In this document: positions 3,989 through 29,146 of the stretch, piece by piece | Position numbering within the stretch: position 1 is the stretch's first letter | How the letters are laid out: each line of letters begins with the position of its first letter | IMG/VR virus record: IMGVR_UViG_3300049825_000251 | Span: 1-36,440 of that record | Origin: a virus | Length of the DNA: 36,440 nt | Reading direction: 5' to 3' (one strand) | The notes under the pieces: generated by a model | Databases searched by the model: none | What the model was told of the DNA's origin: nothing | Seen by the model: only the letters and a program-made list of their open reading frames with translations | Translations under genes and position numbers: made by a program

Positions 3989-3994
3989 TAAATA
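3989..3994 (+). promoter_or_regulatory. TAAATA element 1, early/late gap
   Basis: CATAAATA sits upstream of the terminator at 4028-4059. One of ten gap-associated TAAATA hexamers; see the finding on candidate late promoters. No gene start follows closely. Confidence 0.3.
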
Positions 3995-4027
3995 GCACAC
4001 AAGACTACCTTAGGACTGTATTAGATC

Positions 4028-4059
4028 GCCCCTGGCTTGCACCGTAAAGGGGCTTTCTT
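4028..4059 (+). terminator. Intrinsic terminator ending the early unit
   Basis: GCCCC (4028-4032) pairs with GGGGC (4049-4053), followed by TTTCTT. It separates the polymerase operon from the tail genes and lies just before TAAATA element 2, as would be expected at a boundary between two transcription units. Confidence 0.75.
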
Positions 4060-4067
4060 CTGAATAC

Positions 4068-4073
4068 TAAATA
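4068..4073 (+). promoter_or_regulatory. TAAATA element 2, before the tail gene block
   Basis: Context ATACTAAATACTTC, nine bases after the terminator and 27 bases before the GTG start of the 1577-aa gene. No TTGACA-like -35 is present at 17 bases. The following leader carries AAGGAG, so this transcript would not be leaderless. Confidence 0.45.
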
Positions 4074-4100
4074 CTTCATATTACTAAGGAGCCTTTATCC

Positions 4101-7100
4101 GTGGCACAAACTAAAAAAGCATTTGACGAGGTCAGAGTACCGTTCCAGAAGATGACCTTCAGTCCAGATGTACCTTCTACAGCACTGGGACCAAACGAAT
4201 ACAACTCTGGAGAGAACATTGAAACAGATGTTCGTGGCGTACGCAGTGTAGCAGGTGATGAAACTGTGCTGCCAACGGTGCCTGGGACACCAACCTTTGT
4301 GTCAGGTGGATACCGTCAGCCTATGCCTGGTAGCCTGAATGACTTTTACTTTGTCACAGCCAACACAGAAGGTGAATGGTGGGCTGACAATGGTGAAGGC
4401 GATTATGTAGATATTACACCTGCTGGTGGTGTTGGAGTATACACTCAAGCACAGAACATCACAGAAGCCTGGAACGGCACAGTACCATTCTTCAATGATG
4501 AACAGAATCCTCCACTGTTCTGGCCTGACTTCACTGGCAATAGTTTTGAAATTCTAAGTGCTGACAGCAGCGCAGGTACAAGTACATTGACATTCATAAA
4601 CCAGGCTGATTCTTTAGAAGGTGTTCGCATTGCTGATCATACAGGCACATTCAGTTATACCAACTCAGCACCGCTAAAAGCAGGGCAGAAGGTCACCATC
4701 TCAGGTGTCAATACCAATACAGAACAACCAGTACTGCATGCAGTAACTATCGTAGGCACAGCCGGTGAGTTTAGTTGTGACAACTATCTGGGACCAGTTG
4801 AGTTCACAGGCAGCATTAGTGGCACAACGCTTACAGTAACAGCAGTTGCTTCAGGTGTAATCTATGGTGGTCAGGTCCTGACAGGATCAGGTGTCACCGC
4901 AGGCACTAAGATTACAGGCTTCTTAACAGGTAGTTCAACAGGTCCTGGTACATGGACAGTGGACACAAGTCAGACCACAGCCTCAACCACAATCACAGGT
5001 GTTAGAGAAACAGGCTTAACAATTGGACAAGGCATACAAGTAAGTGGCACAGGTACTCTCACAAGTCAGACTATCTCAGGAGTCACCGTTGCTGGTAACG
5101 CAGGCGAGTTCAGAGCAGTCACAACTACTTTAACTGCCCTGGCCATCACTGGCACTGCTGGACAATTCTCATGTGCTGCTACAACACTGGTCGTTGGACA
5201 GACTGTGACCATAAGCGGTATCAATACAGGCTCAGGCAGCATTACAGGATATACTAATCCTACAGCATACATCATCAGTGTAACAAACGGTACCACAACA
5301 TTCACATTAAGAACAACTAACAACATTGCCTTAGTGACCACAGCAGGAACCACAACAGGTTTAACTGCTAAGAAAGCAACAACGCTTACTCCAGGACAAA
5401 GTGTTACCATCTCTGGCACCATTACCAATACACCCACAGCAGTCAGCACAGTAAGCATTGTGGGCAATGCAGGTGAGTTTAGTTGTGCTGCTACCACAAT
5501 CTCTGTGGGACAACGACTAACCATCACTGGCAGCATTACCAATACACCCACAGTATTAACAGGTGTTGTTATCACAGGTACGGCTGGTGAGTTTAGTTGC
5601 ACAGCCAGTAGTCTACAAGTTGGTCAGACCTTAGTGATTGATGGAGTGTTGGGTGGAACTGGAACCATTGCAAACTATGTTGCTCCAACCAGTTATCTCA
5701 TTGGCGCAACCAATGGGTCAACAACATTTACTCTGACTTCATTGACAGGAGCAGCCATTGCGACCACAGCAGGAACACCAACTGGACTAACATACACAGT
5801 AAGCATTCCTGCCATACTGAACTACAACAATCCTTCAGAATACTTTATTAGTGCTACGGATGGTTCAACAACCTTTACGATACAGACAACAGATGGACTC
5901 ACAGTGACCACACAGGGTGGAACTCCAACTGGACTCGTATATACGCTACAGATTCCAAGTATCTCTGGATATACCAATCCCACAAATTATATCATTGCTG
6001 CCACCGACGGTACTACCAGTTTTACATTGATACAAGTTATTGCTGGCGTGCCCACAGCAGTCACAACCACAGGCGGCGTACCAACTGGTATTGTCTTTAC
6101 TGCGCTGACATCCAGCATTACAGGTTATGTGAGTCCAACTACCTATTACATCAGTGCAACCAATGGCGGCACAGCATTTACATTGGAAAAGGACTTTACG
6201 CTTACTTCAGTTGCCATTGCAGACTCAATGGGCAACTTTACTTGTACATTCTCACAGACACTTGAAGTAGATCAGATTGTAAACATGTCAGGCGTTATTG
6301 GTGGTACTGGTAGTATTGATGGTTATTCAAATCCATCCAATTATTACATTATAACCACAAACGGTACCACAGCGTTTCAACTCAGTGACAGCAAAGGTGG
6401 TACTCCATTAACAACCACAGCAGGCACACCAACTGGACTAACTTATAGAATAACTGCACCATTGGTCACAACAGGTGGCGCCACCTCAGGCTTAACATTT
6501 GCCATTAGACGACCTTCAATCTCAGGTTATGTTGATCCAACAACTTATTACATTCTACAGACTAACGGTGTTACCACATTCCAACTAAGTGCTACATTTG
6601 GTGGAGCACCTGTAACAACATCAGCAGGCATTATTAGTGGACTCAGTTTTGTCTACACACCATTTGCTGTGGGACAAGATATCTTAGTGCGTGGTATTGT
6701 ACCAACAGGCTTTCGTGGCACAAGAACAGTAACAGATGTTACACAGAGCAGCGTGAGTTATAGTGGTAGCACAGCGGGACCAATCACAGTGTCTGGTTGT
6801 GTTAGTGATACACTACCACTGTTACAAATGTACAGTAATCAACTGCCCTCAGACATTTATGACATTGCTTACCTTTCACCTAACCTACAACAAATTACTT
6901 TAAGTTCAACCCTGGCAGTACCACCTTATGCACCAGGTGACTTTATCGTTATCTCTGGAGTCAACAGTTACTTTAATGGTACCTTTAAAGTAGCAGACAG
7001 CACTGAAGACACAATTGATTACTATGCAGTACCTGGTGCTGGATATCCAGGTGGCGGTTCAGTTGCTCCCAAGTACGCCTGGAACTATAATCCAAATTGG

Positions 7101-8834
7101 AAAAGTTATTATGCCAAGTTTATGCGCTTGTATAGTACACCCAATGTGGGTAACATCTTAGTTGCTGGTGGGCTCACTGCCACAGACTTAGATGGTGTAG
7201 TAAGCGAGTATCCAGTAACTGTACAATGGAGCCAAGCGTTTGGACTTAATCAGGCACCGCTAACATGGCAACCAACAGTGACCAATGTGGCCAACCAATT
7301 AGAGATTCCGCTGCGTGGTGGTGTAGTAGATGCGTTCCCTTGTAATGGACAGTTGTTCTTGTGCAGTGTATGGGACACTGTGGTGTTCAGTCCAATCAAC
7401 TATGCAACTACCTCAACACCTATCCTGGGTGTGCGTCTTGCTAATCAGGGTCGTGGCATGCTTACTGCCAACTGCTGGGCCAACACTGACAAGTTAGTGT
7501 ACGGCATTGATGCTCGTGACATCTGGGTATTCAATGGACAAGACTTTCAAGGACTTGGCAACCAGCGTGTTAAGAATTGGTTCTTTGATCAATTGGATCA
7601 GAAGTTTGTTGATCGTGTGTTCATGGATACTAACACACAGAAGAATCAGATTGAGATTTACTATCCAACTCGACCTCCAGTCATAAGTGACATTAGTATT
7701 ACTTCTACTGCTGGTTTGTTTAAAAGCAGTTACGCTCCTGGTTACCCTGGTGGGCCAATGCACGACAACCTAAGCGTAGTGTTGTCAGGTACAGAATTAG
7801 GCACAGGTAGTATCTCTGGTTATACTGGTGGCCCCACAACTTATTATGTGGTTGACAGTTATATAGCGGATGGCTTTGTTTACTTTCAACTCAGCACAAC
7901 TCCAACAGGAGAAGGAGTCTCAACCACAGTGGGCACAGTAACAGGTGTTGCATTTGAATTTGTCAGCAGTGGTGTGCCCAACATGATGTTGAGTTATCGT
8001 TATGATTTGGATTGTTTCAATCCACCACGCCAGGTACAAGCCGCAACAATGAGTACAGAAAGTCCATACTGGAGCAGTAGTGAATGGCATTATGAAGTGT
8101 CAGGCACTAATATCATTGGCACAGGCACAGGTGCTCGCTTTAACATACAGAATCAGACTTCAGTGCAGTATGCTGGTAACCCAACTCCTAACAGTAGAGG
8201 CACAGGATATAGTGTAGGTGATACCATTCTGATACTGGGCAGTGACTTAGCAGGAGAGACACCTGTGAATGACGCAGTTGTCACAGTTGCAAGTATTGAT
8301 TCAGGTGGTAGAATAGCCACGGTTACCGTGTCAGGTACGCCATTAGCAGCCTGGGTTTACAATGACGGGGCTCGTGGCATTGTGTATGCTCGTGGCCTTA
8401 CTGATAGACAATTGGTTCAGAAGGATGACGGCTATAACTTCCTGGGCCCACAAACTCGTGAATATTCTATCAGCAGTTTCTTTCGTAGAGACAACTTAAA
8501 ACTATTGCCAGACTATAGTGGCAAGTTATTGGTGCATAGACTATTACCAGAAGTTGTGAACTTGAACAAAGCAGGTTTACCAATCAATGAAGAGTCAGCA
8601 CCAACGCGAGTAGGCAGTGTTGATATAAAAGTGCGTGGTGCCAACTCAGTAGGTCAAGCACCGCTACAAACAACTGCTGAAACAATGGCAACCAACACTG
8701 ACTATCCTTGGGTTCAGATTACACAGAATGCACATCGTGTCAACAGTTTAACTATCAGCAACAGTTCTACCACAAACATCTGGATGTGTTCAGCAACCAC
8801 ATGGCAGTATACACAAACAGAGGATGACAGATAA
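4101..8834 (+). CDS. Large modular tail protein, nozzle/stabilisation-like (1577 aa)
   Basis: Starts at GTG with AAGGAG ten bases upstream. Three regions are visible. The N-terminus (about 1-160) includes [16 protein letters not shown], the opening typical of podovirus tail stabilisation/nozzle proteins. Residues about 167-870 are an array of beta-sandwich-like modules, with a core of GY-x-x-PT-x-Y-x-I, then TNG, then TTF-x-L, seen seven times. From about 990 a propeller-like region resumes, with QWSQAF, LPLRGG-like turns and DIWVFNG; another copy of the module core lies near nt 7820. This order resembles P22 gp10/T7 gp12-type hubs with an inserted array of surface domains. It probably sits at the tail tip; receptor binding by the inserted modules is inferred. 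Stop TAA overlaps the next ATG as TAATG. Confidence 0.7.
4797..5006 (+). repeat. Type II virion module in the 1577-aa protein
   Basis: Encodes a ~68-aa segment whose core reads [12 protein letters not shown] and ends STTITG. A close relative is in the fibre at about 34150-34360 and a looser one in the head-tail adaptor at about 29752-29970. See the finding on shared modules. Confidence 0.65.
5140..6660 (+). repeat. Array of type I virion modules (coding)
   Basis: Tandem, diverged protein-level repeats of roughly 50-80 aa. The core is [15 protein letters not shown] then TTFTL, followed by a TTAGTPTGL-like turn; some copies are preceded by a GEFSC...GQ-V-ISG strand. Core copies lie near 5235, 5675, 5820, 5960, 6120, 6320 and 6525. 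Confidence 0.8.
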
Positions 8835-9754
8835 TGGCTAAGTTTCCAGTTGAAGTCAGTGACAAGGAAGGCATCGTTGATGCTGTCAACTATGTGCTTA
8901 GTGGACCAGCAGGCTTAGGACAAAACTTTGCTGGCTTCAGTAGTTTTACACCAGCCTGGTTAACGGGCAACTTCCGTGTGCCGTACAGTCTATCACTTTT
9001 TAGTGACACAGCAAAGACGCTGTTTAATACGCCAGCCAGACTGTATGTACCACCCATTGATCTAATAACAAGTGAGATGCTGGACGGTAGAACATTTAAG
9101 TTTACATTTGCCAAACCACAAGCCACAGCACCGTTTGCCTTAGGTAATGGTATTAGTATTGCAGGTGTCAACAGTTGGTACAATGATTCCTACGCCACAA
9201 TTGGCGTTACCAAATGTACCACAACTTATGTTATTGTTAGAACAGGCAGTTCATATACAGTACAGAATTCTGCCAGTGGTGGTACAGTAAGTTTAGTTAC
9301 TGGCACAAGTTTTAACTCAACTGATTGTAATGCTCGTGTCACTGTTACAGGTGGAACTGATAGAGTATTCATAAGTGCTCAGTTGGACAGCACTGTGAGT
9401 TATACTGCCAGTTCATTTCCAGCACTATTAAACTACACAGTGGCCGTGAACCGTTACAAAGGTACGCCCAACAATAATCCTACCAATCCAGACTTTGTGT
9501 TTGAGTTTGATGAAACAGTTGCAGCCAAGACTTATATCAGAGATGGACTAACTTATTCTGGCACGCTGCCTTTAATTGAAACAGTATTCACTTCAATATT
9601 AGACACGCCCGCCCCAGGATTTTATTGGTATATACTTGAAGTTAAGTTTCAATTTAACACGCACCTGACAGGTACTTCCAAAGTATCAAACGGACAAGCA
9701 ACAACTGACTTATTGGCATTGAGAAGTTTAAGCGCACAAGTGGTTAAACAATAA
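8834..9754 (+). CDS. Unknown virion-associated protein, 306 aa
   Basis: TAATG overlap with the large tail gene indicates coupled translation and a shared structure. The product begins [20 protein letters not shown] with a helix-like N-terminus, followed by a Thr/Ser/Val-rich, probably all-beta body and no membrane segment. A segment FALGNGISIAGVNSWYND resembles the [10 protein letters not shown] strand-turn of the neighbouring tail protein, hinting that the two share a beta-domain type. Position suggests a tail accessory or fibre-anchoring protein; the family is not recognised. Confidence 0.65.
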   Translation: MAKFPVEVSDKEGIVDAVNYVLSGPAGLGQNFAGFSSFTPAWLTGNFRVPYSLSLFSDTAKTLFNTPARLYVPPIDLITSEMLDGRTFKFTFAKPQATAPFALGNGISIAGVNSWYNDSYATIGVTKCTTTYVIVRTGSSYTVQNSASGGTVSLVTGTSFNSTDCNARVTVTGGTDRVFISAQLDSTVSYTASSFPALLNYTVAVNRYKGTPNNNPTNPDFVFEFDETVAAKTYIRDGLTYSGTLPLIETVFTSILDTPAPGFYWYILEVKFQFNTHLTGTSKVSNGQATTDLLALRSLSAQVVKQ

Positions 9755-9767
9755 TAAAGGAATAGCA

Positions 9768-10769: not shown

Positions 10770-10770
10770 C

Positions 10771-12096
10771 ATGAAAAAACAAAACTCCAAACACATAGAC
10801 TTCAGCAGCCTAAGCGATGCTGATCTCGCCAGATTAGCCCAGGCACTTGAATCTCGTGGGCATGGTACTGATACCATCTTAGCACACATTAACCCAGAAG
10901 AAGCCCAGGTCCTAAAAGCCCGTGGTGGTTCAGGTACTATCAATCCTGCTACAGGACTGCGTCAATTTGATGGCGATGGAGGTGGTGATGGAGGTGGTGG
11001 TGATGGAGGTGGTGGTGATGGAGGTGGTGGCGACGGCGGAGGTGGTGATGGCGGAGCAGGTGATGGCGGAGCAGGTGATGGCGGAGCAGGTGATGGAGCA
11101 GGTGGCGATGCTGGCGCAGGTGATGCTGGAGCAGGTGATGGCGGAGCAGGTGATGCTGGTGATGCTGGTGATGCTGGAGCAGGTGATGCTGGAGCAGGTG
11201 ATGCAGGTGATGCAGGTGATGCAGGTGATGCTGGTGATGCTGGTGATGCTGGTGATGCTGGTGATGCAGCAGATGCAGCAGATAGTGATGCAGCAGACGC
11301 AGCAGATAGTGATGCAGCAGACGCAGCAGATAGTGATGCAGCAGATAGTGATGCAGCAGACGCAGCAGATAGTGATGCAGCAGACGCAGCAGATAGTGAT
11401 GCAGCAGATAGTGATGCTGATAGTGACGCAGATGCTGATAGTGATGCTGATAGTGATGCTGACGCTGATGCTGACGCAGATGCCGACGCCGATGCTGACG
11501 CTGATGCTGATGCTGATGCTGATGCTGACGCTGATGATGGGGATGATGGGGATGATGGTGATGACGGGGATGATGGGGATGCCGGAGATGGCGGCGGAGA
11601 TGGCGGCGGAGATGGCGTAGTTACTCCAGTAGATCCAACCAAACCAGTATTGCCAATTAATGCACCTACACCCTGGGTTGGCAAAGGTCAAGGCCTAAAT
11701 CCTGGAATGATTGAATCAACTCCATTCTATCACAATGCTGGTCCAGGACAAGCCAAGTACTATTGGGGCTCACACCCTTTCCAGGAAGGTCCTACATTCA
11801 ATGCTGAAAGTTGGAACAATGTTCCTGGTGCACCAGCACAGGGTTTTGGGCAGGGACAAATGGCACAGCCAATGACCAGTCAGCAACTTATTAATTCATT
11901 AAGTCAGATGAGTCCATTCCAACCAGGTGTAACACCAGGCTTTAATCAACAGCAGCCAGCAATGCAACAACGGCCAGCCCCAATGCCAATGCCTGGCCCA
12001 CAACCAGTACAGGGTTTTAATCCAAGTCAACTACAAAGTATGACACAAGAACAATTAAATGCGTTGATACAAAACGCTCAACAGGGTGGTCAGTAA
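10771..12096 (+). CDS. Acidic Gly/Asp/Ala-repeat virion protein, 441 aa
   Basis: Starts one base after the oxygenase stop with AAAGGA upstream. Residues 1-65 form a short helical head ending GGSGTINPATGLRQF, a motif I know from small phage internal or tail proteins. Residues about 68-285 are low complexity in ordered blocks: GGGGD, then GGAGD, then collagen-like GDA triplets, then DAADS, then alternating DAD, then DDG. The remainder is Pro/Gln/Met-rich (QQQPAMQQRPAPMPMPGP). The middle is extremely acidic and probably disordered or calcium-binding. Function unknown; an internal or surface virion component is likely from context. The long open frames on the other strand here are by-products of the repeats. 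Confidence 0.75.
   Translation: MKKQNSKHIDFSSLSDADLARLAQALESRGHGTDTILAHINPEEAQVLKARGGSGTINPATGLRQFDGDGGGDGGGGDGGGGDGGGGDGGGGDGGAGDGGAGDGGAGDGAGGDAGAGDAGAGDGGAGDAGDAGDAGAGDAGAGDAGDAGDAGDAGDAGDAGDAGDAADAADSDAADAADSDAADAADSDAADSDAADAADSDAADAADSDAADSDADSDADADSDADSDADADADADADADADADADADADADADDGDDGDDGDDGDDGDAGDGGGDGGGDGVVTPVDPTKPVLPINAPTPWVGKGQGLNPGMIESTPFYHNAGPGQAKYYWGSHPFQEGPTFNAESWNNVPGAPAQGFGQGQMAQPMTSQQLINSLSQMSPFQPGVTPGFNQQQPAMQQRPAPMPMPGPQPVQGFNPSQLQSMTQEQLNALIQNAQQGGQ
10971..11620 (+). repeat. Coding simple-sequence repeat tract (GAT/GCN/GGN)
   Basis: Imperfect direct repeats: GGTGATGGAGGTGG units, then GGTGATGCT units, then GCAGATAGTGATGCAGCA units, then GATGCTGAC units, then GATGATGGG units. 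Synonymous drift among units (GAT/GAC, GCT/GCA/GCC) suggests old, selected repeats. The tract is prone to copy-number change and assembly collapse. Confidence 0.9.
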
Positions 12097-12104
12097 CCCT
12101 TAGG

Positions 12105-12110
12105 TAAATA
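12105..12110 (+). promoter_or_regulatory. TAAATA element 3, before the internal-protein genes
   Basis: Context TAGGTAAATAACCA, 23 bases before the ATG at 12134; AAGGAA lies between, so a normal leader is expected. Confidence 0.35.
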
Positions 12111-12133
12111 ACCAATGATAAGGAAACTATAAT

Positions 12134-12898
12134 ATGAGTTTATTCGGAGATTTATTTGGGGGTCCAACAACAGACACTTCAAGCACAGTCAACTATATGC
12201 CGCAACAGATAGAAGACATTAATAGAACCAATGAGTTCAGACACGGAACTGTATTGCCACAGTTTCAGAATGTGATGAACGAACTGGGCAATCAATATGC
12301 CGGCAGTAGACAAGGTGTATTACAAGCAGGACAAAATCTTGCTGGCGTTGCTGGACAAGCACAAGAGACACAGGGTGGGCTTGGTGAAGGTATGGCTCGA
12401 ATGGGTGCTCAAGGCTTATCAAGTTTGTTTAGTCCACAGTATGCACAAACACAATTACAAGCCGCACTTGCTCCAGGGCAAGCACAGTATCAACAAAACA
12501 TTGCTAACCAAGGTGCTAACTTTGGTGGCGCTGGACAGTTGGGTAGTGCTCGTCAAGCATTAGCAGGACAACAACTTGCTGGACAAAACGAAGCAAATCA
12601 ATTTAACACAGCAGCAAACCTAATGCAACAGATTGAAGGACAGCGTCAACAAGTTGGTCAATACATGACAGGCACAGGTCTTAACGCAATGGATCAATCA
12701 GTACGCAACGCACAAATGGGCGTTCAGGCTGCACAACTTCCATATCAAGGTGCAAGTATGTTTGCAAGAGATATGTATGGTATGCCTGCTGGCGCTTATA
12801 CTGCTCCTTATCCAAGTCAACAAAGTACTACTGGTTCGAGCCAACAGTCTCCAAGCATTGGTGGTATGATTGGTAGCGTGCTGCCATTCTTCTTATAA
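12134..12898 (+). CDS. Gln/Ala/Gly-rich internal virion (DNA ejection) protein, 254 aa
   Basis: SD AAGGAA. Begins MSLFGDLFGG, continues with long helical Gln/Ala-rich segments (for example GQLGSARQALAGQQLAGQ) and ends with a hydrophobic tail GGMIGSVLPFFL. Composition, length and order before the large transglycosylase-bearing protein fit the small ejection proteins of podoviruses (P22 gp7 or T7 gp14 class), which are packaged in the head and form the trans-envelope channel. No sequence-level homology can be claimed by eye. Confidence 0.65.
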   Translation: MSLFGDLFGGPTTDTSSTVNYMPQQIEDINRTNEFRHGTVLPQFQNVMNELGNQYAGSRQGVLQAGQNLAGVAGQAQETQGGLGEGMARMGAQGLSSLFSPQYAQTQLQAALAPGQAQYQQNIANQGANFGGAGQLGSARQALAGQQLAGQNEANQFNTAANLMQQIEGQRQQVGQYMTGTGLNAMDQSVRNAQMGVQAAQLPYQGASMFARDMYGMPAGAYTAPYPSQQSTTGSSQQSPSIGGMIGSVLPFFL

Positions 12899-16954: not shown

Positions 16955-17066
16955 AGTTAAGTTCCCGAGAACACTATCAAGAACCAGGCGATTTTGGAAC
17001 TTTCTAACCTGGGTATCAACGAATTGGCAGGCGAGGCTTGTGTCGTGTTCACTTAATAAATACAAT
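16955..17066 (+). other. Gap with an orphan open frame after the Dps gene
   Basis: In the same frame as the Dps gene, after TAA-AGT-TAA, 31 codons stay open from 16961 to TAA at 17054-17056 (VPENTIKNQAILELS and onward to CVVFT). There is no ATG or GTG start near its beginning. It reads like protein and may be a remnant of a longer C-terminus or of a lost gene. Weak inverted repeats (GTTCC 16961-16965 with GGAAC 16996-17000; CCAGG 16984-16988 with CCTGG 17008-17012) are also present. Confidence 0.3.
17057..17062 (+). promoter_or_regulatory. TAAATA element 4, four bases before a start codon
   Basis: AATAAATACAATATG: the hexamer ends four bases before ATG 17067 and no Shine-Dalgarno is present. 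If it is a -10 element, transcription would begin at about the start codon. Confidence 0.5.
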
Positions 17067-17417
17067 ATGGAAAATACTAAAGCAAAGAGCAGCAAAGGCC
17101 ACGGAGGCATTCGCAAAGGTGCTGGACGGCCAAAAGGCAGTCGTGATCAAGTAAGCATTAAAAACTTATTAGAAGCACTTGACAAACATACTGGTGGCCA
17201 AGATTATGAAGAATTGTTAGTACAAGACTTCTTACAAGCCAGAAACAACAGCGATACTAATTTAACTCTGAAGTATCACAATTTAATTCTAAACAAGGTT
17301 ATGAGTAGCCTTGCTAAAATTGAAGTAACAGATAGCAAAGATGCTATTGAAGCCAAACAAGCAGCATTTGCAGAAGCACTTGCCAAACTTGTAGGTGTTA
17401 GCACAGAGACTAAATAA
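17067..17417 (+). CDS. Probable terminase small subunit, 116 aa
   Basis: Start set at ATG 17067 (MENTKAKSSK) rather than the upstream in-frame GTG 17040, because the intervening codons run through the TAAATA element. The N-terminus has GGIRKGAGRPKGS (residues 13-25), a basic segment common at the start of phage small terminases and related DNA-binding proteins; the rest is helical (ALDKHTGGQDYEELLVQDFL). Small terminases recognise phage DNA and present it to the large subunit; the large subunit lies 3 kb downstream. Family assignment is by motif and context only. Confidence 0.5.
   Translation: MENTKAKSSKGHGGIRKGAGRPKGSRDQVSIKNLLEALDKHTGGQDYEELLVQDFLQARNNSDTNLTLKYHNLILNKVMSSLAKIEVTDSKDAIEAKQAAFAEALAKLVGVSTETK
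17411..17416 (+). promoter_or_regulatory. TAAATA element 5, overlapping a stop and five bases before a start
   Basis: GACTAAATAACATTATG: the hexamer covers the final codons of the small-terminase-like gene and ends five bases before ATG 17422. No Shine-Dalgarno is seen. Confidence 0.5.
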
Positions 17418-18995: not shown

Positions 18996-18996
18996 C

Positions 18997-19002
18997 TAAA
19001 TA
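18997..19002 (+). promoter_or_regulatory. TAAATA element 6, at the foot of a 10-bp hairpin
   Basis: AACTAAATAAACATGG lies just after the previous stop and two bases before the hairpin 19004-19028. Transcription from here would start within the hairpin. Confidence 0.45.
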
Positions 19003-19003
19003 A

Positions 19004-19028
19004 ACATGGTGGACAGACTCCACCATGT
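19004..19028 (+). other. Perfect 10-bp leader hairpin
   Basis: ACATGGTGGA (19004-19013) pairs perfectly with TCCACCATGT (19019-19028) around CAGAC. No T-run follows, so it is not a terminator. It contains both a tiny 14-codon frame (ATG 19006, stop 19048-19050) and the false upstream start ATG 19025 of the next gene, and lies 23 bases before the real start at 19052. Confidence 0.7.
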
Positions 19029-19051: not shown

Positions 19052-19843
19052 ATGCAACAACCTAATGACCAAGTCAACCCATGGGACACTTCAGCAGAAG
19101 CCGCTCCTGAAAAAACAACCAAATCTAAAAAAACCAAAGTAGAAGAAGTAGTTAAACCTGCTCCTCCTATTGCTGCCAATGCAGGCGACTTTGATATGGA
19201 CGGTCTTATGACCGACTTTCCCACTGCCAAAGAACTCGAGAGATTTGTATTTGATGAAACGGGGATTGTCTTAAACTTAAAAGGTCGTGCTAACAAACTA
19301 AAGTATCAAACTGCCATGGATGTACTTAATGGCGTTGAAGTTGATTTGAAGTTTATTGGCAGTGACAATCCTTACATTGATCGTACTGAATTAGTTCCAG
19401 TTGAAGAATTAAAAGAAGTACCAGCCAAAGACAAGACATTGCCAGATCGTAACGAAGTACAAAACTTGTTTGTAAGCAATAGTATTCCTCATCCTGATTT
19501 TGAAAGTCGTATGCAGGATAAGAAAGTCAGCGTTATCTTCCGCAAATATAAAACAGGTCAGATCAGTTATGAAATCTTAGGCCCAGTTGATCAACGCCCA
19601 CATGGTATGAAATTAGACAAGTATGGTCGTGAGCGTCCAGAGATTATCAAATGGGTTGATCCACGCACAGGCGAACAAGTTGTGATGCGTGAAGATGGCT
19701 CATTGAGTCCACAAGGTCGTAAATTGCGAGCCATGATGCAGACATTCCGTGTAAACAAATCAAACCATTGGGACACCTGGATTGATCGCGAGTTTGCAAG
19801 TCTTAGTGATGCAGTTGCTTCCAACCCATGGGAACTTTCATGA
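19052..19843 (+). CDS. Unknown protein, 263 aa, upstream of terminase
   Basis: Start chosen at ATG 19052 (MQQPNDQVNPWDT) because AAAAGGA lies seven bases upstream; the in-frame ATG 19025 is inside a hairpin. The first ~45 residues are Lys/Pro/Thr-rich and probably disordered. The rest looks globular with mixed strands and helices, including a notable GREHPE-like turn KYGRERPEIIKW and a C-terminal DTWIDREFASL. No family recognised. Stop overlaps the next ATG as ATGA. Position suggests a packaging or head accessory role. Confidence 0.6.
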   Translation: MQQPNDQVNPWDTSAEAAPEKTTKSKKTKVEEVVKPAPPIAANAGDFDMDGLMTDFPTAKELERFVFDETGIVLNLKGRANKLKYQTAMDVLNGVEVDLKFIGSDNPYIDRTELVPVEELKEVPAKDKTLPDRNEVQNLFVSNSIPHPDFESRMQDKKVSVIFRKYKTGQISYEILGPVDQRPHGMKLDKYGRERPEIIKWVDPRTGEQVVMREDGSLSPQGRKLRAMMQTFRVNKSNHWDTWIDREFASLSDAVASNPWELS

Positions 19844-21945: not shown

Positions 21946-21946
21946 T

Positions 21947-21956
21947 GTGTTATAAT
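21947..21956 (+). promoter_or_regulatory. TATAAT element before endonuclease-like gene A
   Basis: GTGTTATAAT, five bases before ATG 21962. The same decamer precedes the paralogue at 25456 (25425-25434). A weak TTACAA lies 18 bases upstream. Suggests the inserted gene carries its own -10 element. Confidence 0.4.
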
Positions 21957-21961
21957 AAGTT

Positions 21962-22387
21962 ATGAGAAACCAATTCAAACAAAAATACTATACGCAAAAA
22001 TGCGGAGCCAAATGCCGTGGGATTGAATGGCACTTTACCTTTGATTCTTGGATTGAATGGTGGGGAGAAGACTTTGCCAACAGAGGCAATAAGTCAGGTC
22101 AACTTGTAATGGCCCGCAGAGGCGATGTAGGACCTTATCATCCAGACAATGTTTATAAAATTACTTGCAATGAAAATCACAGTGAAGCACATGCTAATGG
22201 ATTGGCTGGAATGACAGGCAAAACTCATACTGCTGAATCCCGTGCTAAAATAAGTGCTGGTGGCAAAGGCAAAGTGCGTTCAGCAGAAATTCGTTCTAAA
22301 ATGAATATTAGTAAAAAAGGCATACCACGCACAGCAGAAGTCCGCGAAAAGATTCGTGCAACATTGCTTGCTAAACGACAAGGTTAA
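21962..22387 (+). CDS. Homing-endonuclease-like protein A with NUMOD3 repeats, 141 aa
   Basis: The N-terminal ~75 residues share a core with two other proteins of this phage (25456 and 29148): FTFDSWIEWWG, then NRG, then LVMARRGDVGPYHPDNV. The C-terminus has NUMOD3-type repeats (GKTHTAESRAKISAGGKGK and related), a DNA-binding module typical of phage homing endonucleases. No classical HNH triad is obvious, so nuclease class is uncertain. It separates terL from the genes leading to the portal, a usual place for mobile endonucleases. Confidence 0.7.
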   Translation: MRNQFKQKYYTQKCGAKCRGIEWHFTFDSWIEWWGEDFANRGNKSGQLVMARRGDVGPYHPDNVYKITCNENHSEAHANGLAGMTGKTHTAESRAKISAGGKGKVRSAEIRSKMNISKKGIPRTAEVREKIRATLLAKRQG

Positions 22388-22388
22388 T

Positions 22389-22646
22389 ATGAAACTACTA
22401 AAAAACGGAAAATTCTTGACAGCAATTGGTGAGCGTAGTCCTGTTATATTGTGCGAACGACACGCACAAGTATTTGAGATAGCAATGGTATCAAATGATG
22501 TGCCACATACAATCTATGAATTTGATGATGAAACTCCAAGTCAGCACTGTCAAGCATGTGATCTTCAAGTAGCAAAAGCATACGCAAAGCGACAAGCAGA
22601 AGAAGCAAGCCGGCCTAAGATCATTCTCCCAGGTGAATTTCATTAA
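22389..22646 (+). CDS. Small protein with CxxH...CxxC zinc-site pattern, 85 aa
   Basis: Start at ATG 22389 (MKLLKNGKFLTAIGER), just after the previous stop; an in-frame upstream start would overlap gene A. ILCERHAQVF and SQHCQACDLQ supply a CxxH and a CxxC, a plausible single zinc knuckle, followed by a basic helix KAYAKRQAEEASR. Possibly nucleic-acid binding. Family not recognised. Confidence 0.6.
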   Translation: MKLLKNGKFLTAIGERSPVILCERHAQVFEIAMVSNDVPHTIYEFDDETPSQHCQACDLQVAKAYAKRQAEEASRPKIILPGEFH

Positions 22647-22649
22647 CGC

Positions 22650-22655
22650 TAAATA
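22650..22655 (+). promoter_or_regulatory. TAAATA element 7, six bases before a start codon
   Basis: CGCTAAATAAAGCATATG: hexamer ends six bases before ATG 22662 in a 15-base gap that contains no Shine-Dalgarno. Confidence 0.5.
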
Positions 22656-22661
22656 AAGCAT

Positions 22662-23141
22662 ATGACAGTTTATCTTTATGCAAAACAACATCGCGTAACT
22701 GGATTAAGATATTTTGGTAAAACAAAACGCAATCCTCTAACTTATAAAGGTTCAGGAACTTATTGGCAGCGTCATTTAAAAGCACATGGTAATGATGTAG
22801 AAACTACCTGGTTCCATGCGTATGAAGATGAAAAAACTTTAGTAGAAGAAGCATTATTCTTTAGTAAAGTGTATAATATTGTTGAAAGTTCTGAATGGGC
22901 CAATTTAAATCCTGAAAATGGATTAGATGGTAAGTTTGACAATGCTGGAGTGAATAATCCAATGTATGGTCACAAACACTCAGATGAAGTTAAAAAAGCA
23001 CATAGCAAACGCATGACAGGTCGCAAGCAGTCTGCAGAGCAAATTGCTAAAAGAGTTGCCAAAACTAAGGGACAAGTTCGCCCAGGGCACAGTGAAAAAA
23101 TGAAAGCCTCTTGGGCAAAAAGGAAAAATATAAATGCTTGA
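22662..23141 (+). CDS. GIY-YIG homing endonuclease with NUMOD3, 159 aa
   Basis: N-terminal GIY-YIG fold: VYLYAKQHRVTGLRYFGKT (residues 3-21) supplies the two tyrosine/aromatic positions, followed by YKGSGTYWQRHLKAHG and a glutamate in VEEALFF. The C-terminal half has NUMOD3 (NNPMYGHKHSDEVKKAHSKR, then GRKQSAEQIAKRV). Such enzymes cut at unoccupied target sites so that the gene spreads between phages. It overlaps the portal gene start by eight bases, so it has been fitted tightly in front of an essential gene, a probable sign of long residence. Confidence 0.85.
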   Translation: MTVYLYAKQHRVTGLRYFGKTKRNPLTYKGSGTYWQRHLKAHGNDVETTWFHAYEDEKTLVEEALFFSKVYNIVESSEWANLNPENGLDGKFDNAGVNNPMYGHKHSDEVKKAHSKRMTGRKQSAEQIAKRVAKTKGQVRPGHSEKMKASWAKRKNINA

Positions 23142-25416
23142 AATCAAGAACACGCCTGTACAGGACATTAATCAGAATAAGAAGCAAAATGCCACATTTG
23201 TGCGTATGAAAAATATGATGGATGTGAAAATGGCATCTTATTTGCGTTATCTTGGTACAAAGAACGCAGTAAATCGTGCAACAGATTATCACTATCTATG
23301 TCTTGCAGTTACAGACAGTACAGCCCCTGTAAACGGCATTGATTATATTCACCCCAGTGTAAAGCCAGTAGTTGATTATGCTACAGCAGTTATTACAAAG
23401 GGTCTAATGCCCAATGGTGAAGTTAATTTTGAATTTGTGCCAGAAGAAGAAGGCGATAGTGACGCGGCAAGACAAGCAAGCCGTATGGTTAGCAAAGTTG
23501 TTAACCAAATGAATGACCCACACTTTATTATCAATCGTTGGGCAATGGATTCCAACATGCACAAAAATGGTATGATGATGATCAAACCAGTGCGTGAAAA
23601 GATTGATCGTTATATTGAAACTGAAGGTACTAACGAACAATTAAAAGCATTTGAATTACAAGCCGCTGATGCTGGCCTAACTGCATTTCGCCAAAGCAAG
23701 AGACAAATTAATGTTGACATGCAAAAAGTAATGGCAGAAAGCAAACAAGCATTTGGTGAAGAACAAAATAACTTTGCTGAAGGTATGATTGATCGGCAAG
23801 TTGAAGCAATGCGTATGCCATCAGATGATGTTGACTTAGATGCGTTTAATGCTGAACATGTGTCAGCAGATGAAGCAAAACTAAACAGTCAAGAACAATC
23901 AGTTCGTGATGCTATTAGTCGTAACACAACATACAGAGCAAAATATAAATTAACTGGTTATAACATCAACATCAAGTTCCATCCGATTGCACAGCACTAT
24001 TGGATTTGTGATCCTACAGTTCCTGAAATGAAAGATCAGCCATTCTGTGGCTACTACGATCCAATGACAATTCAGGAAGCAATGGACTTGTACCCAGGGA
24101 TGAACTTAGAAGACTTCCGTCAATATGCCGAATACAATATGAATGGCGCATATCAAGCAGGTTCAGTATTAAACAACTTGGCTATTCACGCTCGTGACTC
24201 AGTTCCAGTTATGGGTATTCCAGTTAGCAGTGCAGCCAGTGCAGATCCAGATAGTCGTCAAGTAAGTATCGTTACCGTATGGAACAAGTTTGACATTGAT
24301 GGCGATGGCGAATTAGAACTTGTTGAATTAATCTATAGTGGTTCATACATTATCAGTGCTCGTGAAGTAGAATTTATTCCTGTTGCTAACATGTGCCCAA
24401 AACCATTGCCAGGAAACTTTTATGGAATGAGTATTGGTGAATCAGTTATTCCAATGCAGGAATACAACACAAGTGCTGCTCGTGCAGAGATTCAATTGGG
24501 CTTGCTGACAGCAACACCACGCATTGGTGTCAAGCCAGATAGATTAGACTTTGAGATGTTACAAGATGGTGAAAGTGCTATCTTTGTATTGGACAGCAAG
24601 TTTAATCCAGCAACTGACATTTATCAAATCCCACCACCAAGTGGCAACTTGCAATTCTTAGAAGTTGCAATGAATCGTATCCAACAAGATACAATGGCCA
24701 TGGTTGGTATGACTACACCAAGTGATGTGTTCAACCCAGAAGTAATGGCTCCAGGTAACTCGGGTATTAAATTGCAAATGGCATTGAGTCCTAATCAGAT
24801 TATCCAAGACAACACAGTACGCAATGCTGCCGAAGGTCTTAAAGAAGCAATTTGGTTGGTATGGCGCACACTTATTCAATATGGTGATGACTATGGTGTT
24901 AAGAAGTTAGCACAAGATAGCCATCCAGAAAAGAAGCCACTATTCTTAGATTATCAATCATGGGATGACATGAACTTTTGCGATCGCAAACAAGTTCACT
25001 TAGAATTAGCGTTAGGCATGATGAGTGATGAAAACTCATTGAACCGTTTACAACTAATTCGTAAATGTCAGACTGAAGTGTTACAACTAATTGATGGACT
25101 TGCCAGTTCAGGTGCAGCCAGTATTGAACTTATTAAGAAAATGATCAAGCCATTTGAAGATACTTTGTATGCACTTGGTGTTAAAGATTGTGATGCTTAC
25201 TTGCCAAGTGATCAGGAACTACAAGTATTAGTACAAGCCGCACAGCAACAATCACAGAACAAACAGCCAGGTCCACAAGATAAGAAAGCATTGGCCAGTG
25301 CTAATTTGGATGACATTAAGGCCAAGCAAATTGAAATGGAAATTGCTGGTACAGATGCTGAAAGTCAATTAGACTTCATGAGCATGGCAGCAGGCGATCC
25401 AAAAGTTTATTCTTAA
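23134..25416 (+). CDS. Portal protein (P22-like), 760 aa
   Basis: Follows terL after the endonuclease insertions. Portal features: SVKPVVDYATAVITKGLMP near the N-terminus, GNFYGMSIGESVIPMQEYN in the middle (the clip/wing region pattern), and a long helical stem region GLKEAIWLVWRTLIQYGDD. Length is close to the P22 portal (about 725 aa). Twelve copies form the ring at one capsid vertex that serves as DNA channel and motor docking site. The C-terminus is Gln-rich and helical (QAAQQQSQNKQPGPQDKK). Start ATG 23134 overlaps the upstream gene. Confidence 0.9.
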   Translation: MLEIKNTPVQDINQNKKQNATFVRMKNMMDVKMASYLRYLGTKNAVNRATDYHYLCLAVTDSTAPVNGIDYIHPSVKPVVDYATAVITKGLMPNGEVNFEFVPEEEGDSDAARQASRMVSKVVNQMNDPHFIINRWAMDSNMHKNGMMMIKPVREKIDRYIETEGTNEQLKAFELQAADAGLTAFRQSKRQINVDMQKVMAESKQAFGEEQNNFAEGMIDRQVEAMRMPSDDVDLDAFNAEHVSADEAKLNSQEQSVRDAISRNTTYRAKYKLTGYNINIKFHPIAQHYWICDPTVPEMKDQPFCGYYDPMTIQEAMDLYPGMNLEDFRQYAEYNMNGAYQAGSVLNNLAIHARDSVPVMGIPVSSAASADPDSRQVSIVTVWNKFDIDGDGELELVELIYSGSYIISAREVEFIPVANMCPKPLPGNFYGMSIGESVIPMQEYNTSAARAEIQLGLLTATPRIGVKPDRLDFEMLQDGESAIFVLDSKFNPATDIYQIPPPSGNLQFLEVAMNRIQQDTMAMVGMTTPSDVFNPEVMAPGNSGIKLQMALSPNQIIQDNTVRNAAEGLKEAIWLVWRTLIQYGDDYGVKKLAQDSHPEKKPLFLDYQSWDDMNFCDRKQVHLELALGMMSDENSLNRLQLIRKCQTEVLQLIDGLASSGAASIELIKKMIKPFEDTLYALGVKDCDAYLPSDQELQVLVQAAQQQSQNKQPGPQDKKALASANLDDIKAKQIEMEIAGTDAESQLDFMSMAAGDPKVYS

Positions 25417-25419
25417 ATA
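25414..25419 (+). promoter_or_regulatory. TAAATA element 8, overlapping the portal stop
   Basis: TCTTAAATAAATTTG begins in the TAA stop and precedes the GTGTTATAAT of the next gene. Partly forced by the stop codon, so weaker than the others. Confidence 0.25.
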
Positions 25420-25424
25420 AATTT

Positions 25425-25434
25425 GTGTTATAAT
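25425..25434 (+). promoter_or_regulatory. TATAAT element before endonuclease-like gene B
   Basis: GTGTTATAAT, identical to 21947-21956, 21 bases before ATG 25456 and followed by AAAGGA as ribosome site. Confidence 0.4.
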
Positions 25435-25455
25435 TAGACTTTGAAAGGAATAGAA

Positions 25456-25728
25456 ATGTTGAAACCGTATAATCACGAGTATCATAGACAAAAAGATGGA
25501 GCCAAAAGAAGAAATATTGATTGGCAGTTTACATATGACACATGGATGGAATGGTGGGGAGATGATATTGTCAATAGAGGCAAAGGTGATAAACTTTGTA
25601 TGGCTCGTTATGGCGACATTGGTCCTTACAGCGTTGAAAATTGTAAAAAGATTACGCATAGTCAAAATTGTAGCGAAGGACAAAAGGGAATACTTAAACC
25701 AAGAAAAGCAAAGGAAATGACAATATGA
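25456..25728 (+). CDS. Homing-endonuclease-like protein B, 90 aa, no NUMOD3 tail
   Basis: Start chosen at ATG 25456 with AAAGGA about seven bases upstream; the longer TTG-start frame would run through that site. The product has the full core shared with A and C (FTYDTWMEWWGDDIVNRG, then LCMARYGDIGPY), but ends soon after at KAKEMTI, so it lacks the NUMOD3 DNA-binding repeats and may be a decayed or trimmed copy. ATGA overlap with the next gene. Confidence 0.65.
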   Translation: MLKPYNHEYHRQKDGAKRRNIDWQFTYDTWMEWWGDDIVNRGKGDKLCMARYGDIGPYSVENCKKITHSQNCSEGQKGILKPRKAKEMTI

Positions 25729-26078
25729 TATCAGAAGACGCAGTAGAAGCATACAATAGAAGATTAACGATTGACACAAGCAATCCTAAAAAACTTACGC
25801 CAAGTCAGCGAGACGCTGTTAAACAATACGGTTCAATTGCTGAATCACTTTTAACAAATCGCGACTTGGCTATGTTTATACATCATTTCAAATTTGAAGT
25901 GAACGATGTACTTGCAAATATTAGAACACATACTGAAGAAGCAAATTGCGAGCGTATTGCACTTGCCAATCAGTTGAGTGGTATAGATAGTTTTATAAAC
26001 ACTTTAAAAAGTGCTGTATATAAAAAGAATGTATTGGTCAGGGCAGAAACTACTGGTATTACGGATAGTCAGCCTTAA
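25725..26078 (+). CDS. Unknown helical protein between portal and scaffold, 117 aa
   Basis: Starts in an ATGA overlap. Charged, all-helical sequence (NPKKLTPSQRDAVKQYGSIA; RTHTEEANCERIALANQLSG). No family recognised; the position between portal and scaffold suggests a head-assembly helper. Confidence 0.6.
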   Translation: MISEDAVEAYNRRLTIDTSNPKKLTPSQRDAVKQYGSIAESLLTNRDLAMFIHHFKFEVNDVLANIRTHTEEANCERIALANQLSGIDSFINTLKSAVYKKNVLVRAETTGITDSQP

Positions 26079-26086
26079 CACGATAC

Positions 26087-26092
26087 TAAATA
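26087..26092 (+). promoter_or_regulatory. TAAATA element 9, before the scaffold gene
   Basis: GATACTAAATAGAAG, 43 bases before ATG 26136; the leader carries AAAAGGAAA, so a conventional ribosome site is used. Confidence 0.45.
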
Positions 26093-26135
26093 GAAGTGAA
26101 GGTAACCGCAAGGCCCTTAACAAAAGGAAAAATTA

Positions 26136-27299
26136 ATGGAAACAACGATCACCCCTAATGCTCCACAGAGCACGGGCACTGAACAAAGCGCAGTTCCAAG
26201 TTTGGATTTCATAGCCGCTAAAATGACCGCTATGCGTGAAGGCACACAGCGTAATCAAATTAGGCCTACTGAACAGACTGCAACAGGAGAAGATGATGCG
26301 GCAGCAGAATCAACCTCTGTGGCACCCAGCAATTATGCTGATGCTGAAGTTGCTGACACCAGTGACAATGAATATGCAAGCGACAATCAAGACTCAGATG
26401 CCCATGAAGATGTAAGCACTGAAAGTAATGATTCTTCAGCAGATGAATTAATTGACTTCTTAGAATTTGCGGATTCAAATCCAAAAGCAAAATTCAGGTT
26501 CATGAAAAATGGAAAAGAAGTTGTAATTGATGCTAAGAAAGCCGCAGCAATTCTGGGTCAAGGAAGCGCAATACACGAAGAAGCACGCCAACTGAAAGTT
26601 GATAGAGCAGAGTTTGATGAATATAAAACTCAGGCCAAGCAACAACAAGATGGTTTACTTTTAGCAATGGAATTTACCGTCCAACCTAAGTTGCAAAAAG
26701 CGTACTCTGAAATTGTGAAAACACAAAATTACCAGACTACATTTCAGCAACAATTAGCACGGACACAGGATCCAGCACAAGTTGCAAGGATTCATGCAGG
26801 GATGGCGCAGAATGAACAATACATTCGTCAGCAACAACAGACCATTGGTAAGTTGAAGCCGCAAGTGGATCAGTTTAGACAAGCCCGTGCTCAGCAGGTA
26901 GCGGAACAAGTACAAACTTCGCGCAAAGGATTTACTGACAAAGAGTTGAAAAACGATTATGTCTTTAATGAGATTCGTGAGAAGATTGCAAAAGTTTGGC
27001 CTTTATCAAAAGGTGAGATGGTTCCAGGGATTCCAAACATTGACTTGATTTCAAGCGATGAACAATTGCTAAGTTTGATCCGTGATGGATTGAAATATAG
27101 AGATAAACCTGCTACAAAATCAGCAGGGGCAAGTATGGCAGCGTTAACATCACGCAAAGGTTCAAGTAGCCAGCGTAATAATAACGATAGCGATATTAGC
27201 AAACTTCGTGAACAAGCCAAGGGCGGCGATAAAAAAGCCGCTGACAACCTATTAGTTCAACGACTACAGAGTATTCGTTCTGGTAGGGGTGGACGATAA
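26136..27299 (+). CDS. Capsid scaffolding protein, 387 aa
   Basis: Directly upstream of the capsid gene with SD AAAAGGA. The N-terminal ~110 residues are acidic and disordered-looking (EDDAAAES, DNQDSDAHEDV). A short strand segment FRFMKNGKEVVIDAKKA follows, then a long coiled-coil region rich in Gln and Glu (QQQDGLLLAMEF to QQVAEQVQTS), and a basic C-terminus ending RSGRGGR, the part that usually contacts coat protein. Scaffold directs prohead assembly and leaves before or during packaging. Assignment rests on position and composition. Confidence 0.8.
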   Translation: METTITPNAPQSTGTEQSAVPSLDFIAAKMTAMREGTQRNQIRPTEQTATGEDDAAAESTSVAPSNYADAEVADTSDNEYASDNQDSDAHEDVSTESNDSSADELIDFLEFADSNPKAKFRFMKNGKEVVIDAKKAAAILGQGSAIHEEARQLKVDRAEFDEYKTQAKQQQDGLLLAMEFTVQPKLQKAYSEIVKTQNYQTTFQQQLARTQDPAQVARIHAGMAQNEQYIRQQQQTIGKLKPQVDQFRQARAQQVAEQVQTSRKGFTDKELKNDYVFNEIREKIAKVWPLSKGEMVPGIPNIDLISSDEQLLSLIRDGLKYRDKPATKSAGASMAALTSRKGSSSQRNNNDSDISKLREQAKGGDKKAADNLLVQRLQSIRSGRGGR

Positions 27300-27325
27300 T
27301 AACCATAATTTAAGGAAAATATATC

Positions 27326-28498
27326 ATGGCAGAAATTACAACCAGTCAAATTGGTAACGGTACTACATCTTACGGATCAGATATTGTTGTTAAAGACTTA
27401 GACTTAGATGTCTCAAACCGTGTCAAAGATGACACTCCAGTGCTCAACATGGCGATGAGCAAAAAGCGTAAAGTTAACAGCACACTACCATTGTGGACTG
27501 ATGACATTTACCGCGCTCCAGCAGTGCAAGCACAAGTTGAAGGCGCTACAGTTGCTACATCTCAAGCAGAGAGCAATCAGCGTTACAACTTAGGTAACTA
27601 CACACAGATTTTCAGTACAGTTATTGCTGCTTCTGGAACTGCTCGTGCTGTTATGCAATCTGGTGGTGACCCACAAGCATACCAAGAGGTTAAGCAGTTG
27701 ATCGAATTGATGTTCGATGTGGAATTACAATTAGTTCGTAACGACCAAATCGGTACAAAGTATGCTGGTCAAACAGGTACAGCGTCTGGTCTACCATCAG
27801 GCCAAACTGGTCGTCGTATGGGTTCATTGGCTTCTTTCGCTGGTACTCAATCTTTCAATACAACATCTGGCACATTGTCAGGCTTAGATACTTTCACTAA
27901 CAACGAGTCTACTGACTCTGCGTCACAAGGTTCTAATGTATTGAACATCAATGCTAACGGTAGCAACTTCTACTCTGGCACATTTACTAACCAGTTCTTC
28001 AGCCCAGCGTTATACAAGCAATTGGTTACTGTTGCTGAAACTCGTTACAATGCAAAAATCCGCACAGTAGTTGCGCCAACTTCTTTACGCACAAGTCTTA
28101 GTGACAACATGCCACAAAGTCGTGGTATCAACCGTGTTGATTCTGCTCGTGGTGACACTATCCAGACTTATGAAGGTGACTTCAATTACACATACGAAAT
28201 CTTTGATTCTTGGATCATGGATCAAGTTAACGCCAATGCAATTTACTTCTTGAATGAAGATGTTATTCAGTGGGGTTCATTGCGTGACTTAGGTCCTAAC
28301 AACGAAGTATTCAGTAATGCTGATGCTTCATTGGATCAATTTATTTTAGAAGGATCACTTATTGTGCGTAACCCAGCAGGTGTTGGTATTCTAAACAACA
28401 TCACTGCAGGTACAACTGCTCAAGCCTCTTTACCAGGTGCTCGTCCAGCAGCCTTGGTACAGCGTGTAAACAGCGGTGCAGGCGATGTTACTCCTTAA
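27326..28498 (+). CDS. Major capsid protein, DUF5309/SU10-like, 390 aa
   Basis: Preceded by TTAAGGAA. The N-terminus has DTPVLNMAMSKKRKVNST and LPLWTDDIYRAPAVQAQVEG, followed by NYTQIFSTVIAASGTARAV and a YQEVKQLIELMFDVELQLV helix, the order typical of DUF5309-type HK97-fold coat proteins (the SU10-like group of podoviruses). Length is normal. Highly regular codon use compared with neighbours (GGT, CGT, GCT frequent), as expected for the most abundant virion protein. Followed by a strong terminator. Confidence 0.85.
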   Translation: MAEITTSQIGNGTTSYGSDIVVKDLDLDVSNRVKDDTPVLNMAMSKKRKVNSTLPLWTDDIYRAPAVQAQVEGATVATSQAESNQRYNLGNYTQIFSTVIAASGTARAVMQSGGDPQAYQEVKQLIELMFDVELQLVRNDQIGTKYAGQTGTASGLPSGQTGRRMGSLASFAGTQSFNTTSGTLSGLDTFTNNESTDSASQGSNVLNINANGSNFYSGTFTNQFFSPALYKQLVTVAETRYNAKIRTVVAPTSLRTSLSDNMPQSRGINRVDSARGDTIQTYEGDFNYTYEIFDSWIMDQVNANAIYFLNEDVIQWGSLRDLGPNNEVFSNADASLDQFILEGSLIVRNPAGVGILNNITAGTTAQASLPGARPAALVQRVNSGAGDVTP

Positions 28499-28523
28499 TT
28501 CTTAATAGAGTTAAGTTAACACA

Positions 28524-28550
28524 GAAAAGACCCTCCGGGGTCTTTTCTTA
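28524..28550 (+). terminator. Strong intrinsic terminator after the capsid gene
   Basis: Perfect 10-bp stem GAAAAGACCC (28524-28533) / GGGTCTTTTC (28538-28547) with a TCCG loop of the stable UNCG type, then TTA. The uracil tract is inside the 3' arm. TAAATA element 10 follows seven bases later, again pairing a terminator with a candidate new start. Confidence 0.9.
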
Positions 28551-28556
28551 TGACAC

Positions 28557-28562
28557 TAAATA
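28557..28562 (+). promoter_or_regulatory. TAAATA element 10, five bases before a start codon
   Basis: CACTAAATAACACTATG: lies between the capsid terminator and ATG 28568, with no Shine-Dalgarno between. Because the terminator should stop upstream transcription, something here must restart it, which makes this the most persuasive copy. Confidence 0.6.
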
Positions 28563-28567
28563 ACACT

Positions 28568-29146
28568 ATGAGCAACCAACCAGAATATTTAGATGATACA
28601 GACCCTGAAAAGAATTGGGACTATTACCGCCAAGATCATGGAGGTATGATTACAAGCCACAATGGCATAGCAGATAAACTGCTTCAAAATGATGACCTTT
28701 ATCGTAGCATGAAGGGTGACTGGATAAGAACCAGTAACAATCAAAGTGGTAATATTGCTATTACTACTGGTCGTGAAGATGGTAAATTTTACATCAAACG
28801 CGAACAAAAAAATACTGAAGCCATTAAGGCTGGCGTAAGAGAATACAGAAAAACTGCTGAAGCAGGTATGATAGATCCAATGGCACCTATTGGTGATGAT
28901 GGAAAACTAACTTACAAGTGGATGGATCTTCCTTCTGTAATTGCTATTCGCATCAGTGATCAATACTTTGATGGCATTCCTTGGTCAGCATTAAAGAATG
29001 ACAGAACACTCAAAGCACAATTCTACAGAGTAGTGGAGTCTGAGTATCCTGACTATATTTGTTACCCTGGCGGTAAGTTGCCCATCCCAGTTGCGGTTCC
29101 ATACCCAACTAAAAAGGGTGAAAAGAAATATTTCAAAGGAAGATAA
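28568..29146 (+). CDS. Unknown protein downstream of capsid, 192 aa
   Basis: Start set at ATG 28568 (MSNQPEYLDDTDPEKNWDYY) because the earlier in-frame ATG 28550 lies at the terminator and upstream of TAAATA element 10. The protein is hydrophilic, with a TGREDGKFYIKRE beta-hairpin-like stretch and a compact C-terminal part (SVIAIRISDQYFDGIPWSAL and a YPGGKLPIPV turn). Many phages place a head-completion or neck protein here. No family recognised. Confidence 0.6.
   Translation: MSNQPEYLDDTDPEKNWDYYRQDHGGMITSHNGIADKLLQNDDLYRSMKGDWIRTSNNQSGNIAITTGREDGKFYIKREQKNTEAIKAGVREYRKTAEAGMIDPMAPIGDDGKLTYKWMDLPSVIAIRISDQYFDGIPWSALKNDRTLKAQFYRVVESEYPDYICYPGGKLPIPVAVPYPTKKGEKKYFKGR

Follow-up and report, generated by a model that had tools for sequence, protein, structure and literature searches.

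Late promoters in the closest described systems

The late promoters of T4-type phages consist of a single A+T box at −10, have no conserved −35 element and stand before virion genes (PMC1524935, PMC2988020, PMC2984593). The box reads NATAAATA in S-PM2 and TATAAATA in T4, where it occupies positions −13 to −6 (PMC1524935), and the late promoter predicted for the T4-like phage Aeh1 is CTAAATA, beginning at −12 (PMC1524935). In phiEco32 and SU10, the late promoters are likewise made of a single element, located 6 to 8 bp before the start, and the early promoters are of the sigma-70 type; the box, tAATGTAtA, goes together with the phage sigma factor gp36. The promoters of T7-like single-subunit RNA polymerases, and the yeast mitochondrial ATATAAGTA, are also short start elements specific to the phage or the organelle.

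Here we describe a TAAATA box found in a virus record 36,440 bases long (referred to as the window, that is, the whole stretch of DNA analyzed) and in its relatives. Judged by its sequence and by the surrounding architecture, this box is best read as working like the late promoter of T4 and Aeh1, since it is a single box without a conserved −35 element in front of virion genes and the predicted Aeh1 consensus is identical to it. In contrast with the T4-type systems, the phages studied here are unrelated to T4, measure ~36 to 40 kb and have an SU10-like portal; their boxes are strictly TAAATA preceded by C or A, and many of the starts are predicted to be leaderless. We leave the promoter outside the T4 system, given that gp55, the factor that defines that system, was searched for and no homologue was found. 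With phiEco32 and SU10 the window shares the single element at a comparable distance, the sigma-70 early promoters and a distantly related portal, but the enriched box is CTAAATA instead of tAATGTAtA. Unlike the T7-like and yeast mitochondrial systems, the family has no conserved single-subunit RNA polymerase.

The viral genome and its relatives

The window carries virion genes that include those for the terminase, an SU10-like portal and the major capsid protein. No named phage gave a near DNA match to it, and the closest named portal, at 46%, was that of an uncultured podovirus of Manatee Spring. Hundreds of relatives were present in IMG/VR, and 27 near-complete ones (30 to 40 kb) were compared with the window, giving a set of 28 genomes from a large, uncultured family of ~36- to 40-kb phages. 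Counts across this set refer to related and hence non-independent genomes, with start codons assigned by a simple rule. The order of the core genes was the same across the near-complete relatives, the start points of the contigs being different. For its part, the replication module appeared to be swappable, with Prim-Pol, VapE-like or DUF5906 proteins in the relatives and a 546-amino-acid protein in the window. A host search through relatives of the capsid and terminase in genome contigs yielded none.

Two further features of the window were observed. A 251-bp repeat, 99% identical and with a tRNA-Gln gene in each copy, occupies positions 1 to 251 and 36163 to 36413; the copies are probably the ends of a single genome, permuted or circular, that differ between strains, or else they arose by duplication. 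Besides, three related HNH homing-endonuclease-like genes lie between late genes (21962 to 22387, 25456 to 25728 and 29149 to 29513), one beside the terminase gene, one after the portal gene and one after the gene starting at 28568.

TAAATA boxes in the late gaps of the window

The ten copies of TAAATA reported in the preliminary description were all found in place on the + (coding) strand. The + strand carries five others, inside open reading frames (1702, 10678, 16596, 31398 and 31662), and the − strand carries two (13557 and 28586). The resulting 17 copies, compared with 27.4 expected, indicate that the hexamer is not abundant in the window and that it is its placement that stands out. Thus, the 15 late gaps, which add up to 715 bp, contain 10 copies on the + strand and 0 on the − strand. 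A first-order simulation of these gaps (2,000 runs) gave a mean of 1.5 copies and a maximum of 6, and 10 copies were reached in 0 runs, which bears out the claim of an enrichment over chance. Six of the ten copies read CTAAATA (those with the T at 4068, 17411, 18997, 22650, 26087 and 28557).

The box at 4067 to 4073 (+) precedes a virion-protein gene (4101 to 8834) with a spacer of 27 bases that includes AAGGAG, and the box at 28556 to 28562 (+) lies 5 bases before the ATG at 28568. Both had been said to follow terminators and, by eye, GC-rich hairpins with T-rich tails resembling intrinsic terminators are indeed located just 5′ of them, one at 4027 to 4060 (+; GCCCC...GGGGC) and the other at 28525 to 28549 (+), after the major capsid gene. 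The copy at 3989 to 3994 (+), preceded by A, is situated upstream of the former hairpin with no gene directly downstream and is the weakest candidate. Long spacers were found after the boxes at 12105 to 12110, 25414 to 25419 and 26086 to 26092 (all +), which precede the gene at 12134 to 12898 (23 bases, with AAGGAA), the ATG at 25456 (36 bases, with AAAGGAA) and the gene at 26136 to 27299 (43 bases, with AAAGGAA), respectively. The protein encoded before the first of these boxes (10771 to 12096) contains a long low-complexity Gly/Asp/Ala repeat (GDAGDAG...DADADAD), and repeats of this type were also observed at the same place in several relatives.

The boxes at 17057 to 17062, 17410 to 17416 and 22649 to 22655 (all +) lie 4, 5 and 6 bases from the ATGs at 17067, 17422 and 22662, respectively, the last one belonging to a homing-endonuclease-like gene; these three genes, together with that at 28568, are predicted to be leaderless in the window. 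The box at 18996 to 19002 (+) precedes a gene with a probable start at 19052 (19025 in the open reading frame call). The assignment of the copies to gaps needs some refinement: while the coordinates were right, the copies at 17411 and 25414 overlap the stop codons of the preceding genes (17067 to 17417 and the portal gene, respectively), and the copies at 17057 and 28557 fall within open reading frame calls that were over-extended, the real starts by homology being ATG 17067 and ATG 28568.

Enrichment and conservation in related genomes

The enrichment was also observed in related viral contigs, across 118 loci that supplied 616 distinct gaps. TAAATA ranked first of all 6-mers, with 294 copies versus 95 under a second-order gap model and 7 on the other strand. 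CTAAATA ranked first of all 7-mers: the coding strand had 127 copies and the other strand 0, the expectation being 16.6 from the second-order gap model and 0.4 from the coding frequency. One-base variants of CTAAATA were mostly near background; CTAAAAA, CTAAAGA and CTAAACA were modestly above it, possibly as a result of overlap with AAAGGA-type sites. In 22 of the 28 genomes, taken singly, TAAATA ranked third or higher among the gap 6-mers. In agreement with the reported lack of a −35 element, no −35 conservation was detected across the 294 aligned family sites. The named relative MW202484 (portal 46% identical) was discarded as a carrier of the box, given that it has 9 copies of TAAATA on the + strand and 8 on the − strand and that the hexamer is absent from its top gap 6-mers.

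Conservation differed from gene to gene. TAAATA was present upstream of the orthologues of the 12134 gene in 28 of 28 genomes (spacer of 17 to 25) and of the 4101 gene in 24 of 24, and the portal orthologues had the box in 26 of 27. In the relatives the box directly precedes the portal gene, whereas in the window it is followed instead by the homing-endonuclease-like gene at 22662. For the orthologues of the 19025 gene, a box was found within 80 nucleotides upstream in 23 of 28; those of the 28568 gene had one in 22 of 26, with a spacer of 5 to 7. The orthologues of the 26136 gene had TAAATA in 9 of 25 cases (spacer of 43 to 48), those of the 17067 gene that have the box showed mostly a spacer of 4 to 6, and in the cluster of the 17422 gene (c26) the spacer was 5 in five of six boxes. 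No box was found before the terminase (TerL) gene or several other operon-internal genes across the genomes. The flanks were less conserved than the box, and the conservation of the box is therefore not simply due to shared descent of the gap.

The late block of most relatives includes one minus-strand gene (cluster c12), lost in the window. Its start carries a minus-strand TAAATA in 21 of 24 genomes, and this copy stands back to back with the box that the neighboring gene has on the plus strand. At the position of window 16955 to 17066, a gene for a protein of ~171 amino acids, divergent from its neighbor, was present in 25 of 29 genomes compared (minus strand in 24), and it gave no Pfam or PHROG match; this gene is lost in the window. 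The orientation of the box tracks the gene and not the direction of replication or packaging.

These data bear on the proposal that TAAATA is just a side effect of the TAA stop codons and of the A+T richness of the gaps. Of the 294 copies, 58 do overlap a stop codon, and the gaps are A-rich, but both TAAATA and CTAAATA exceed the second-order gap model, the one-base variants mostly fail to rise above background, and the motif flips strand with the gene. Moreover, an ATG was located at exactly 5 bases in 16.7% of the sites, compared with ~3% for control hexamers from these gaps that match TAAATA in composition and lack this peak. We thus consider an origin as a by-product extremely improbable. 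The strand- and gene-specific conservation, the orientation with the gene and the spacing to the ATG strongly support the late-promoter role proposed in the preliminary description, and (C)TAAATA is very likely the core element of the late promoters in this family of phages.

Spacing to the start codon and predicted leaderless transcripts

The distance between the box and the start codon was bimodal, with one class at 4 to 6 bases (mode 5) and another at about 18 to 28. In the short class, 51 of 51 starts were ATG, and a Shine-Dalgarno-like word was present within the 25 bases before the start in only 4 of them; such a site was found in 118 of 160 members of the long-spacer class and in 67% of the genes without a box. 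In the short class the box is roughly at the position of a ribosome site, as would be expected if TAAATA were a translation or RNA-processing signal (a Shine-Dalgarno replacement or a cleavage site) rather than a promoter. However, the larger class has the box 14 to 50 bases upstream, and a normal AAGGA site separates it from the start; besides, the box marks the heads of operons and genes that follow terminators instead of preceding each gene, so that a signal of this kind is a quite improbable explanation.

As a late promoter, the element would be a single −10-like box without a −35, with transcription predicted to start ~5 to 7 bases past its last A, and the boxes would initiate late operons as well as single genes placed after terminators. 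Given that the T4 box ends at −6 and the CTAAATA of Aeh1 begins at −12, a spacer of 5 bases places +1 on the A of the ATG. TAAATA at −11 to −6 fits a T4-type single TATA-like box, its position with respect to +1 being deduced from the peak of ATGs at 5 bases. Genes with this spacing would give an mRNA starting on the A of the ATG, and on the grounds of the sequence pattern we find it probable that they are expressed from leaderless mRNAs; elsewhere, a short leader with an AAGGA site would be produced. T4-type late promoters have an A+T-rich segment immediately 3′ of the box; here, the A+T content was 72% in the stretch from +1 to +7 beyond the box versus 67% before it, in gaps that are A+T-rich anyway.

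A hairpin is located immediately 3′ of the 18996 box (19004 to 19028, +), and its shape is kept in the relatives while its sequence varies. Hairpins of this type were found 1 to 8 bases after TAAATA in the 19025/19052 leader in most of 25 genomes, with a median z of −4.6, compared with values of about 0 for the leaders of four other genes. Because it overlaps the predicted start site, the hairpin may have its role in read-through RNA or may stabilize the 5′ end.

Recognition of the box

The early module contains a near-perfect sigma-70 promoter (TTGACT-17-TATAAT, 11 of 12 matches) at 611 to 639 (+), and the early genes would be transcribed from near-consensus sigma-70 promoters of the host. 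The early module had a higher density of sigma-70-type sites (67 in 147 kb versus 132 in 753 kb), which, together with the lack of a −35 at the boxes, makes a T4-like late switch likely. The early module also has TAAATA (120 on the + strand and 11 on the −), and a "late only" rule is therefore not strict.

Two readers had been put forward for the box, namely, host polymerase assisted by a phage factor and the polymerase encoded at 1431. The latter (1431 to 3071, +; 546 amino acids) shows by eye motifs A (YDLNTSVF), B (K..I..ISFGA) and C (WVHDGF), which resemble those of polymerase A and single-subunit RNA polymerases, and a protein of this sort could read TAAATA directly, as occurs in T7-like phages and yeast mitochondria. 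However, it lies in a swappable module and gave no protein-family or PDB sequence match. Viral_contigs contained a single close relative of it, and it was missing from all 27 near-complete genomes with the same promoters; therefore, it cannot be the general reader. Direct reading by a phage single-subunit RNA polymerase is accordingly a highly improbable explanation for the family. The structure model of the protein (pLDDT of 33, from two sequences) was useless. A shorter protein resembling it (cluster c59) was observed in three relatives.

Regarding a phage factor, gp55 was searched for in the 28 genomes with phrog_234 (0 of 28 at an E value of ≤1) and with T4 gp55 by hhalign and phmmer, with nothing significant. 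The T4 system also comprises the co-activator gp33 and the sliding clamp gp45; the annotated genes showed no clamp. A protein with sigma-70 region 2 was rejected as the reader (Sigma70_r2 in 0 of 28 genomes), as was a sigma of the phiEco32 type (gp36, ECF-like), with no homologue in the 28 genomes, and there was no obvious transcription factor common to all members. The 208-amino-acid protein with a C-terminal helix-turn-helix encoded at 35405 to 36031 (+), related to family c35, was discarded as a sigma because there was no sigma fold in the model, no PDB match below an E value of 0.001 and presence in only 8 of 28 genomes. The model of a c35 relative (pLDDT of 81.5) comprises an alpha/beta domain and two helix-turn-helix units, and the protein at 35405 to 36031 may be, at most, a regulator. 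This helix-turn-helix family is fast-evolving and is situated at the late/early boundary.

The lack of a phage sigma among the 28 genomes, and of an obvious transcription factor in all members, would suit recognition of the box by host RNA polymerase carrying a host alternative sigma, the phage having no factor of its own. Nevertheless, no common bacterial sigma is known to recognize CTAAATA in the absence of a −35, which counts against this possibility, and phage sigma factors diverge quickly and are easily missed. Those of phiEco32 and 7-11 share 15% identity (PMC8948821), so a missing match does not prove absence, and we regard a host sigma as an unlikely reader. Host polymerase with a phage factor stays the best of the options considered, even though no such factor was recognizable in the 28 genomes. 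It seems reasonably likely that the box is recognized by the polymerase of the host, redirected by a phage factor that would be too diverged to be identified.

Implications for the phage family

A bolder proposal, which we hold as possible but somewhat doubtful, is that these phages arrived independently at the T4/Aeh1 box without gp55 or a recognizable sigma, with a new kind of specificity factor and with leaderless late mRNAs as a regular class. In its extreme form, the boxes could be read by a late sigma that a T4-like phage supplies during co-infection.

From sequence alone, the analysis yields a transcription map, open to testing, for uncultured phages of a widespread family. Leaderless late genes are predicted to form a regular class, with exact start sites, and a T4-like late box without the T4 factor points to a new promoter-specificity factor.
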